64,000 nucleotides of DNA from Balamuthia mandrillaris (lineage: Eukaryota > Discosea > Longamoebia > Balamuthiidae), in contig JAVKOQ010000116.1 of assembly GCA_031835245.1 (NCBI GenBank), positions 96,001 through 160,000 on the forward strand, in the 5' to 3' direction. The notes under the pieces were generated by a model. That model had not been told where the DNA came from, made no database searches, and worked only from the letters and a program-made list of their open reading frames with translations. Position 1 is the stretch's first letter; every line of letters begins with the position of its first letter. Position numbers and translations under genes: made by a program. Below are positions 12,517-15,218 of this stretch, in pieces.

Positions 12517-12592
12517 ACATTCTTTTTATACTTTCTCAATTCAGGGATTTCGAGAATCGTGTCGTCCCAAGAGTTTTGCCTGGCAGGGTTGC

Positions 12593-12636
12593 CCCTAAGG
12601 CGGCGCAAAGATCATAAGATCTAAGGACAACGAAAA
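12593..12636 (+). repeat. Left terminal inverted repeat of the Fanzor element
   Basis: Two blocks: 12593-12614, a 22-base match to the right end that includes three bases of the target duplication, and 12625-12636. The right copy is exact in both blocks. The GC-rich outer block and A-rich inner block are separated by an unconserved spacer, as in TIRs with bipartite transposase sites. Confidence 0.85.
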
Positions 12637-13179
12637 AAGAAATCACGACATTAGTCTTTTGGGCCAATGAGCATGTTTCCCGCCAAAACAACCCTTCCTT
12701 CTCCCACGTCTCTGAAGGCAAAGTGGTAGGGTGGGGTGTACGGAATGGATGCTCATGCTGCTGCTGCCGCCAATAAACTTTTGGTACTCGTCATTCGCCT
12801 TGACACTTTTCTGCTACTCGTTTTCTTTTCTTCTCTTCTTTTCTTTTCATTTCTTTCTTTTCAAAAGTAAACACACAGACACACACATCCACGAAGCTCC
12901 ACGCACCACCGTATTTCTCATTGCTACGCTTCTACTACACAAGGAGGAAACCAGCGGAAGGAGGCAGAGGTGGAAACCGAAGCGGTTCAGCCGCAGGCAG
13001 GGGCACTGCTCCGATTGAAAAGGTAGTGTTCTTTTTTCTCTGCTCGCTCACTACATTTTTTGATGATGGAAAAAAAAATGTGTTACCAACCTCTCGCTAA
13101 TGATTTCTTTTGTTTAAAAAAGAACAGCATCACGAACCTCTGTGCGCCTCTTCCACAACGCTGCTGGAAGCTGGCCTGA
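12637..13179 (+). promoter_or_regulatory. 5' region of the Fanzor gene with a probable leader intron
   Basis: No protein gene is supported. A likely untranslated leader exon ends before GTAGTGTTC at 13022, and an acceptor AAAAAGAACAG ends near 13127, so the mRNA may be spliced before its start codon. A pyrimidine-rich block (about 12810-12862) precedes the leader. Transcription start is not determined. Confidence 0.35.
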
Positions 13180-14919
13180 ATGGCAAGTTGCCCACAGTGC
13201 GGAAAAAAGTTTGCTACCTCTCACGGGTTGGCCATCCACTTCGGTCGGGTCCACAAGGAAGGGGGTCGCGCCACTACTTCTGCTACTTCCACTGCTACTC
13301 GGAAAAGAAGAGCGGAAAACGCCCCAGCGGCACCTCAGGCAAGGGCACAGAAGCGTGGAAGGCCGCAGGCTGCACCCGCCCAGCCCTTTTGGAACCAGTT
13401 TTCCAGCTTAATCGGGAGAAGATTAATACGCCCGGAAGCCTTGTGCTTGGAAGAACCCTTTGCCTGTGGTTCAGGATGGTTCACCGCCTGCAAGCACATT
13501 CCTAACGGAGAAAAGGTGTTGGAGGAGGAGGAGGAGAAGAAGGAGAAGGAGAAGAAGGAGGAAGAGGAAGAGGAGAAGGAGAAGGAGAAGGAAGAAGAGG
13601 AGAAAAACCAGAAAGGCTTGTTAGGCCTCATCGAGGGACTCGTTCCGTCTCGCCCAGCCGTACAGCTCACCAAAAAAGGCAAGAACGGAGAGGAGAAACC
13701 GGTAGTGGGGCGAGTGGAGAAGATCCGCCTTTATCCGCGCTCAGAACAAAAGAAGACGCTGGCCAAGTGGTTCGGCACAGTACGATGGACCTACAACAAG
13801 GCCGTGGAGTTCCATCGTGAACATAAAGGAATGCCTCTTAAGGAGATGAAGGAACAAGTCAGGGAGAAATTCCTGAATAACGGCAATTTCAACGGAGAGG
13901 ACAAGAGCCTTGCGTGGGTGTTGGAAACTCCTCGATACATTCGCAGTGACGCTGTCGATGATTTCTTCAACGGCGTGAAAAGCAGCTTGGCGGCGGGCAG
14001 AGGCACGACTGGATTCCAGATGAAGTTCCGTGGTAGGAAGGACAAGAGCCAGTCTCTCAGCATCCAAGCCAGGGAGTGGAACCACAACAACTCTATCCGC
14101 CAACTCTTCTTCGGGGAGGCGCGAATCAAAGCGAGGGACAAGAACTACAAAGTTCCGTCAGAGGTGCTCTATGCCGTTCGTCTGGTGAAGGACACTCGAC
14201 TGGGCCATTACTACCTCTGCGTGCCTCAGCCTTTGAAGCTCATGGGCGAGAGCCAAGCCCGTGAGCACCGAAGGAGAGAGGCAGGCATCATCGCCTTGGA
14301 TCCAGGAGTGCGCACATTCATGACCACCTACAACGGCTGCGGGGAGGTCACCGAGTGGGGCAAAGCGGACATCAACGAGATAGGCAAGCTGTGCCACCGC
14401 CTGGATCGCATGCAGAGTAAGGGCACCAAGGGCAACCACAGGCAACGGCGCCGTCTCCGAAGGGCCGCTGCTCGGCTTCGCCAGAGGATCCGCAACCTGG
14501 TGGATGACCTCCACAAGAAGCTCGTGTCTTGGTTGGTCAGGAACTTCTCCCTCATCCTTCTGCCAGAGTTCAGGAGCCAGCAGATGGTGCGGCGAGGCCA
14601 CCGCCGCATTGGCTCACGAACGGCCAGAGCCATGCTCACCTGGTCCCACTATCGCTTCAGGCAGAGGCTCCTCAACAAGGCCCAGCAATTTCCGTCCTGT
14701 ACGGTCTGCCTCTGCGATGAGGAATACACCTCCAAGACCTGCGGCAAGTGCGGCCAAGTCCACCACCAGTTGGGGGGAAACAAGACCTTTCGGTGCCCTC
14801 AACCCGAGTGTGGCTACCAGGCGGATCGAGATGCCAACGCCGCCCGAAACATCTTGATCCGCTTTTTCACTTTACAAGCACTTACCACCTCCTCCTCCTC
14901 CTCTGTGAGGGGGCGGTAG
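13180..14919 (+). CDS. Fanzor (eukaryotic TnpB-family RuvC nuclease) with N-terminal C2H2 finger
   Basis: Intact single-exon ORF of 579 residues. Residues 4-25 form a C2H2 zinc finger (C4, C7, H20, H25). A basic Ala/Pro-rich segment and a Glu/Lys tract (about 112-142) lead to the TnpB core: the N-terminal RNA-binding part (KIRLYPRSEQKKTLAKWFGT, WTYNKAV), RuvC-I ALDPGVRTF with D374, RuvC-II LLPEFRSQQM with E463, the arginine-rich helix MVRRGHRRIGSRTARAML, a zinc ribbon (C521, C524, C539, C544) and RuvC-III ADRDANAARN (D549/D551). All catalytic carboxylates are kept, so it looks active. These features match Fanzor2 and giant-virus TnpB, RNA-guided DNA nucleases using an RNA from the element's right end. 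The ribbon's second pair is C-X4-C rather than the usual C-X2-C. The finger could help target DNA; that is inference. Confidence 0.93.
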   Translation: MASCPQCGKKFATSHGLAIHFGRVHKEGGRATTSATSTATRKRRAENAPAAPQARAQKRGRPQAAPAQPFWNQFSSLIGRRLIRPEALCLEEPFACGSGWFTACKHIPNGEKVLEEEEEKKEKEKKEEEEEEKEKEKEEEEKNQKGLLGLIEGLVPSRPAVQLTKKGKNGEEKPVVGRVEKIRLYPRSEQKKTLAKWFGTVRWTYNKAVEFHREHKGMPLKEMKEQVREKFLNNGNFNGEDKSLAWVLETPRYIRSDAVDDFFNGVKSSLAAGRGTTGFQMKFRGRKDKSQSLSIQAREWNHNNSIRQLFFGEARIKARDKNYKVPSEVLYAVRLVKDTRLGHYYLCVPQPLKLMGESQAREHRRREAGIIALDPGVRTFMTTYNGCGEVTEWGKADINEIGKLCHRLDRMQSKGTKGNHRQRRRLRRAAARLRQRIRNLVDDLHKKLVSWLVRNFSLILLPEFRSQQMVRRGHRRIGSRTARAMLTWSHYRFRQRLLNKAQQFPSCTVCLCDEEYTSKTCGKCGQVHHQLGGNKTFRCPQPECGYQADRDANAARNILIRFFTLQALTTSSSSSVRGR

Positions 14920-15103
14920 GCGGTAAGGTTGCTTTGGTGCCGGCACCGTTGCTTATAGCGAGTCGTAAGACAAGCCGTGATTAGGCACGCCGGAGGTGGG
15001 TTGTTTTTTGTGTCTGTTTTTTTGTTTTCCTTTTTACTAATTTTGCTTTATTTTCGTTGTCCCATTGATCGGCTTGATCTTTGCGCCGCCTTAGGGTTGC
15101 CCC
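14920..15103 (+). ncRNA. Candidate guide (omega/f) RNA region at the right end of the Fanzor element
   Basis: TnpB and Fanzor guide RNAs derive from the 3' end of the nuclease gene and the right element end, with the guide read from flanking DNA. This non-coding stretch fits that position. It contains the perfect 12-base palindrome GGTGCCGGCACC (14936-14947), flanked by GTTGC-type repeats, and the conserved right TIR. If the model holds, the guide would begin just after 15093 or 15103. Position and family knowledge only; no expression evidence. Confidence 0.45.
15051..15096 (-). repeat. Right terminal inverted repeat of the Fanzor element
   Basis: Reverse complement of the left end: inner block 15051-15062 and outer block 15075-15096 are both exact. 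Immediately outside are GGGTTGCCCC and then the telomere-like run ACCCTAACCC near 15109-15119. Confidence 0.85.
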
Positions 15104-15218
15104 ACAAAAACCCTAACCCTTGCCGCTGAGCGAGTCGTAAGAAGGGATGGAATTTATTTTCTGAATCATTTTTTTTATTATTATTAACGTTAATAATAAT
15201 ATAAGTAATGTGTTACTA

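Follow-up and report, generated by a model that had tools for sequence, protein, structure and literature searches.

The 64,000-nucleotide stretch of Balamuthia mandrillaris DNA analyzed here (positions 96001-160000 of contig C115 in a 64.8-Mb assembly of 775 contigs; "the window" below) contains a 2,498-bp transposon copy at 12596-15093 that has terminal inverted repeats (TIRs), a target-site duplication (TSD) and a single intact open reading frame (ORF) encoding a Fanzor2 nuclease. It belongs to a young, multi-copy TIR transposon family of this species in which that Fanzor2 is the only recognized gene. Most of the family's insertions carry the sequence 5'-C[AG]G (CRG, where R is A or G) next to the left end in a fixed orientation, and we consider it probable that this is a Fanzor2* (the published type of Fanzor2 that is carried by TIR elements) with a guide specified by the DNA at its right end, CRG as its target-adjacent motif (TAM) and a transposase that acts in trans.

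The interval 12586-15103 consists of the element plus both copies of a perfect 10-bp TSD, GGGTTGCCCC, which end-pair analysis places at 12586-12595 on the left and 15094-15103 on the right (both forward strand). The left TIR, TAAGGCGGCGCAAAGATCA (12596-12614, forward strand), is matched exactly over 19 bp by the right TIR (15075-15093, reverse strand), and a 12-bp block internal to it, GGACAACGAAAA (12625-12636, forward strand), recurs as an inverted repeat near the right end (15051-15062, reverse strand); the two ends read TAAGGCGG...CCGCCTTA. The Fanzor2 gene occupies 13180-14919 on the forward strand as one open frame of 579 codons, and a possible GT...AG intron in its 5' leader (13023-13127, forward strand) was predicted by reading the sequence. 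No transposase was recognized inside the element, whose second-longest ORF (147 amino acids, opposite strand) was not domain-searched. The initial annotation had described an intact nuclease ORF between exact 19-bp TIRs with an inner 12-bp block, and had judged the ends to be of the cut-and-paste type and not IS607-like; the ORF and both repeats are where it put them, and the presence of TIRs and a TSD and the lack of a recognized recombinase agree with its judgment of the ends.

The encoded protein is a Fanzor2 by sequence, by fold and by its place in a tree. It matches the Pfam zinc-ribbon family Cas12f1-like_TNB (PF07282) with an expectation value (E) of 2.4e-16 and HTH_OrfB_IS605 (PF12323) with an E of 4.6e-10, OrfB_IS605 falling slightly under the cut-off, and it scores 125.7 bits with the NCBIfam guided_TnpB model (cut-off 100). 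Its closest solved structure by sequence is the mimivirus Fanzor2 complex 9b0l (4.6e-27; protein L79), which has the same domain order and also ranks first in a fold search (E 1.6e-21, template modeling score 0.69 by target length) with a structure model of the 579-residue protein whose mean predicted local distance difference test (pLDDT) value is 80.1; the first Fanzor1 in that search, SpuFz1, is at rank 28. Yoon et al. give as a Fanzor fingerprint a DPG motif together with a glutamate six residues before the zinc ribbon, ExxxxxxCxxC (PMC10711439). This fingerprint is present as D374-P-G and E514 with 137 residues between them, and 117 of 120 listed homologues have it when the allowed spacing is widened to 175 residues. 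Residue by residue, the RuvC-I aspartate D374 of the DPG motif (14299-14301, forward strand) is found in all 120 of these homologues, the RuvC-II glutamate E514 at the alternative "Ealt" position defined by the ExxxxxxCxxC rule (14719-14721, forward strand) in 119 with one gap, and the RuvC-III aspartate D551 (14830-14832, forward strand) in 116 with four gaps. E463 is unconserved, being E in 30 and K in 38 of the same 120. In the classic RuvC site the catalytic glutamate lies on the loop that joins the fifth strand to the TNB domain (PMC11423790), a geometry that fits E514 as the catalytic glutamate. Thus, of the RuvC carboxylates initially listed, D374 and D551 stand, the latter as the last aspartate, but E463 gives way to E514; the zinc ribbon listed with them is the PF07282 match, and fingerprint, tree and fold support the description of the element as a candidate active Fanzor within TIRs.

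In a quick tree of 91 rows (mostly metagenome proteins, with no named Fanzor1 references) the window protein lies within a 42-row clade that has a Shimodaira-Hasegawa-like approximate likelihood ratio test (SH-aLRT) support of 98. This clade comprises the window protein, all 38 database proteins (four from Lipomyces and one labeled Lygus among them), two IS607-type proteins from the same genome and one viral contig, and all 29 bacterial rows are outside it, 15 of them in a cyanobacterial group. The protein therefore falls inside Fanzor/TnpB, as its first annotation as a Fanzor implied, and within a Fanzor2-type clade. The same genome encodes Fanzor2 paralogues at three loci, L062-L064 (on C71, C27 and C774), that are 40-57% identical to it over the aligned parts; an overlapping ORF at both L063 and L064 encodes a serine recombinase (PF00239), which makes these two IS607-type Fanzor2 elements. 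The sister of the window protein in the quick tree is the metagenome protein P0005 (support 89), and constraining it to group with L063/L064 gave a better likelihood (approximately unbiased test, p-AU 0.679). The exact sister differs between the analyses; capture of the gene from a resident IS607 Fanzor2 would be compatible with the constrained tree.

The TIR, with up to three mismatches allowed, occurs at 205 sites across the genome and the reversed pattern occurs at none, so the TIR is commoner than chance would give and the window copy does have other TIR copies beside it in the genome. A protein search returned at least 87 match rows (a lower bound, as 75 of 514 candidates were scored), of which 15 span residues 1-579 and two span residues 11-579 without a stop, and the 17 near-full-length open ORFs are 97-100% identical. 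Twelve intact copies, those with an anchorable ORF among 21 loci, are under purifying selection: 44 synonymous and 33 non-synonymous variants over 387 and 1,356 sites, respectively, give a ratio of non-synonymous to synonymous polymorphism per site (pN/pS) of 0.214, in copies that were picked as open frames, which favors intact ones. Eleven catalytic and zinc residues were checked, and all are retained in 11 of the 12 copies; the twelfth lacks D551. A second subfamily with slightly different ends is represented by L019, L020 and L029.

Each of the eight shorter copies inspected is internally deleted or rearranged at breakpoints of its own, in some cases with added filler DNA, and these features suggest that interrupted in-place gap repair fits them better than an amplified miniature family does. 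L004 (C82) has, at 1503-1538 of that locus, a 36-bp remnant that is barely more than the two TIR tips and has the 10-bp duplication GTGGCTGACC on both sides. In L060 (C82:26500-29800) positions 228-831 hold the element's first 591 nucleotides, including the leader and start codon, upstream of a 206-residue ORF without a Pfam match, where promoter donation by the element is possible. At the other end of the element, the 100-base bin that holds the block after the stop codon is 0.99 conserved among 16 full elements. A 14-mer of this post-stop block, AGCGAGTCGTAAGA at 14957-14970, recurs in the right flank at 15129-15142, 36 bp outside the element. Of its 56 genomic copies, 31 are no more than 400 bp away from an exact TIR end.

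The insertion sites were analyzed as follows. Among 23 close end pairs an exact TSD of 8-10 bp is present in seven (10 bp in six of them) and a TSD with one mismatch in four, and in ten of these 11 pairs C[AG] stands immediately before the TSD and G is its first base (the exception is C26). We then counted flanks at all 141 ends that have an exact 18-base core, merging identical flanks (from 74 to 67 on the left and from 67 to 62 on the right). C[AG]G starting at -14 to -9 is found in 58 of the 67 distinct left flanks versus 15 of the 62 right flanks (Fisher P = 2.8e-13; the test assumes independent flanks, older shared duplications may remain after merging, and the six-position window was picked after the flanks had been viewed), and restricting the start to -12/-11 gives 49 of 67 versus 8 of 62 (P = 2.9e-12). 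When the flanks were shuffled 2,000 times the left count averaged 14.0 with a maximum of 24, and the right count 7.8 with a maximum of 18. The 58 motif-bearing left flanks contain CAG 43 times and CGG 15 times, and 54 of the 62 right flanks begin with G. The excess on the left ties the motif to the end that lies upstream of the gene. Left and right ends differ in most copies by A or C at TIR base 12 and by subterminal sequence; base 12 is the same at both ends of the window copy, and its right end, which bears the left-type base, was manually counted with the right ends. Among the 11 TSD-bearing pairs, the one on C7 consists of two right-type ends; its CAG flank contributes to the 15 right-side matches. 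Eleven listed ends with a core mismatch were left out of the count, and five of the seven of these that were checked have C[AG]G at -12 to -10. In three end pairs (C98:144215-144590, C114:105380-107888 and C16:393920-394533) the flanks appear by eye to be inverted repeats of each other and not TSDs.

In TnpB and Fanzor systems the TAM is the motif to the left of the element and the guide is its right flank. The insertion sites of this family are unusually informative: they are numerous, their TSD is clear and the motif beside them keeps one orientation, which allows TAM and guide start to be predicted from genome data alone. The left-flank enrichment makes CAG at 12584-12586 (forward strand), whose G is TSD base 1, the candidate TAM of the window copy, and the guide is predicted to start from base 1 or 2 of the right TSD copy. 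The nuclease would bind an RNA transcribed from the right end, where a putative scaffold region (14920-15093, forward strand) runs through the post-stop block (about 14920-15000), a U-rich spacer and the right TIR, and the guide would be the DNA immediately outside that end, from the TSD on. At an empty site 5'-CRG would directly precede the guide target. At an occupied site the element would interrupt the target on the left, and on the right T-A-G would stand before the target in place of C-R-G; self-cutting at that end should thus be avoided, and only the empty site would have both TAM and target. Cutting would therefore be confined to chromosomes from which the element has gone or in which it was never present, and repair off an occupied copy would restore or spread the element. 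The element itself would be moved in trans, probably by a Mutator-type DDE (Asp-Asp-Glu) transposase that makes 9-10-bp TSDs.

The TAMs reported for proteins of the nearest kinds are CCG for NlovFz2 and TAG for MmeFz2 (PMC10432273) and GGG for the TnpB of ISXfa1 (PMC10711439); all three end in G, and CRG fits this series. The RNA of the ISXfa1 TnpB includes a fixed right-flanking nucleotide, which the G at TSD base 1 parallels. In Spu-1 of Spizellomyces punctatus a CA before the left repeat is conserved in full elements and internally deleted "ghosts" alike, and the nuclease SpuFz1 has CATA as its TAM (PMC10432273), an analogy that favors a link between the CRG motif and the nuclease here. As to what eukaryotic transposons gain from retaining an RNA-guided nuclease, we suggest, tentatively and at less than even odds, that the left-only CRG is a footprint of RNA-guided homing or retention, in which correctly oriented insertions beside a TAM survived and multiplied: each insertion would program the Fanzor against its own empty site, and cut empty chromosomes would be repaired from the occupied one. 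In plasmids, TnpB is reported to work as a gene drive for insertion sequences (PMC11870625). If true, such a footprint would be population-genetic evidence for the role of Fanzor in a transposon whose transposase does not supply the TAM.

Several observations weigh against the combination of right-end guide, CRG TAM and trans mobilization proposed here. Twelve of the 23 close end pairs share no recognizable TSD, which implies that many loci are rearranged. A right-end RNA with a pseudoknot is expected of Fanzor2*, and here the right-end region folds no better than its shuffles (z 0.11). The CRG-bearing deleted copies L065, L066 and L068 retain little or none of the post-stop block and may not make their own guide; deletion after insertion would explain them, and would not support the model. 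The G-ending series of TAMs is three enzymes long, and the TAMs that these papers give for Fanzor1, namely CATA, TTAAN and ATN, have no final G (PMC10432273, PMC10711439, PMC11423790). Yoon et al. predict that the TSD is inside the Fanzor2* RNA scaffold (PMC10711439), whereas the position of CRG argues that only the first TSD base (G) is fixed or in the scaffold and that the rest is guide. The Mutator assignment was drawn from TSD length, the PF00872 search having given nothing and the PF10551 hits being remote (below).

The CRG pattern could arise from a transposase that prefers CR^G in one orientation, or because insertions without a TAM were lost, or were not driven, more often. With the former, an asymmetric transpososome would place the left end always downstream of the motif, the Fanzor would be a passenger and its TAM need not be CRG. 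This would suit the location of the motif at the TSD edge, where a transposase cuts, the difference between the two ends in most copies (though not at base 12 of the window copy) and the presence of CRG at internally deleted copies that have no post-stop block. Orientation-locked insertion at a 3-bp asymmetric motif is, however, unusual for a two-end DDE transposase. The left-end motif of Spu-1, moreover, belongs to the TAM of its nuclease (PMC10432273) in an element with putative TA TSDs (PMC3627910), and we regard an explanation from the transpososome as doubtful, if deserving of serious weight. It is improbable that the nuclease gene is inert cargo in decaying copies; many copies are indeed truncated or frame-broken, and five match the finger region (below) only from residue 9 or 11, but the pN/pS value and the retained key residues given above, in copies selected as open frames, speak against it.

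CAG|G also resembles a proto-splice site and the right end reads TTA followed by G, as might be seen if the pattern came from splicing of an introner-like insertion and not from a TAM. This is very hard to credit, as CGG makes up 15 of the 58 motifs, only 25 of the 67 left flanks have, as their last TSD base, the G needed for a GTAAGG donor, splicing from the motif itself would drop a base and put the product out of frame, and the window copy looks intergenic (as judged from ORFs and a tRNA). Finally, carriage by a TIR transposon is the classical setting of Fanzor1 (PMC3627910), and a Fanzor1 or a contaminating bacterial TnpB was therefore weighed; the HTH_OrfB domain, the closeness to mimivirus Fanzor2 in fold and sequence, the position inside the database Fanzor2-type clade with every bacterial row outside it and, for a contaminant, the many copies across contigs of a eukaryotic assembly make either of these next to inconceivable.

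No transposase was found between family TIRs in the searches made (paired ends, PF10551 loci and PF00872). Of the 68 PF10551 hits in the genome, none comes closer than 42.7 kb to an exact TIR end, and the contigs of 58 have no such end; the 20 loci fetched from among them (2-3.3 kb each) contain no paired family TIR and two lone matches with six mismatches, and 16 of the 20 bear the ends of another TIR family. A genome search with PF00872 gave zero hits, and the viral contigs contain no exact TIR. The TSD length agrees with that of Mutator-like elements (MULEs): six pairs have an exact 10-bp TSD, and 11 of 23 have one of 8-10 bp when a single mismatch is tolerated. But since no matching MULE transposase with the same TIRs was found we do not file the element as a MULE. 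Candidates for an autonomous partner were rejected: of 30 convergent end pairs less than 60 kb apart, all seven longer than 2.6 kb share no TSD, and the ORFs between the ends of L059-L061 resemble host genes by eye (three ORFs of L060 have no Pfam match and the rest were not searched). In three of the 20 fetched loci, L040, L043 and L048 (on C4, C45 and C7), a MULE-domain transposon with ends CAAAAATGGTAGATATCCCACCCC sits at the very end of the contig. Several further PF10551 hits begin some 1,290 bases in from where their contig starts, and these positions could reflect assembly breaks or chromosome-end elements.

The initial annotation also reported a C2H2 finger at the N-terminus. Residues 4-25 (CPQC...H...H; 13189-13254, forward strand) do match the pattern CxxC-x12-H-x(3-5)-H, but they score under the Pfam zf-C2H2 cut-off of 25.2 bits (16.1 with the whole protein and 21.1 with its first 63 residues), and the finger is unfolded in the structure model, where residues 1-63 have pLDDT values below 50 (the alignment is sparse there and the model has no zinc). 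Among the 120 listed homologues a finger-type motif within the first 150 residues is found only in P0002, which is from Balamuthia. The finger has a pN/pS of 0.86, from just four variants, and the five copies noted above match only part of it. It appears to be a real, lineage-specific and possibly dispensable addition. An origin of the finger from a transposase is unsupported, as the finger-like matches on C27, C202 and C219 have no paired family TIRs; by eye they sit in a repeated ORF upstream of RING/SWIM-like sequence. A vestige of tnpA in the N-terminal part was also dropped, because BLAST gave only low-complexity matches, a shuffle test gave 6/1000 and the "PFW...WF" stretch is a motif common to the aligned Fanzor2 homologues. 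Outside the element, a tRNA-Leu gene lies about 80 bp upstream of the window copy; tRNA-directed insertion was rejected, since only one of 38 other scanned loci (some of them overlapping) has a tRNA.

How does this element compare with known systems? The open literature searched (subscription papers and supplements lay outside the search) contains no report on Fanzor and Balamuthia together; for Fanzor and MuDR it contains only the 2013 paper PMC3627910, and Fanzor with Mutator-like terms gave none among the matches listed. The arrangement is nonetheless less novel than was initially held, since Fanzor2* and MuDr-like Fanzor1 elements have been published (PMC10711439, PMC3627910). Fanzor2* are Fanzor2 proteins in cut-and-paste transposons with TIRs and TSDs, known from Chloropicon primus and from mollusks including Mercenaria mercenaria (PMC10711439). 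Like them, the Balamuthia element has a Fanzor2 nuclease with the DPG and Ealt site between TIRs with a TSD. Unlike them it is in another host group, has an N-terminal C2H2-like finger, is present in many near-identical copies and has its apparent TAM on the outer boundary of the TSD, which would make most of the TSD guide rather than scaffold; its own TSD is 9-10 bp long. Spu-1 is likewise a TIR element without a transposase that has many full and ghost copies and a conserved motif upstream of the left repeat, which is part of the TAM there and is predicted to be so here, but it has a Fanzor1, a TA TSD and a CATA TAM (PMC10432273), and its ghosts are a conserved family, whereas the eight short copies examined here have unique breakpoints. 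Bao and Jurka described Fanzor1 elements with 9-bp TSDs and MuDR-like TIRs that they assigned to MuDr (PMC3627910); among these ROr-4, PBl-3 and MCi-4 resemble the present element in having TIRs, long TSDs and no transposase, but they are fungal Fanzor1 elements whose TIRs resemble known MuDr, and no autonomous match was found for ours. The IS607-borne Fanzor2 elements at L063/L064 differ from it in that it has TIRs and a TSD and no recognized recombinase (with its 147-residue ORF as noted above); their boundaries, compared for a TAM in two copies only, have no common motif that we could see. The presence of IS607-type and TIR-borne Fanzor2 in one genome should be useful for studying how these genes change carrier. 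Within the published Fanzor2* kind, the Balamuthia element is set apart as a variant by its long TSD, by the weak C2H2 finger at its N-terminus and by a CRG motif that recurs across the genome.

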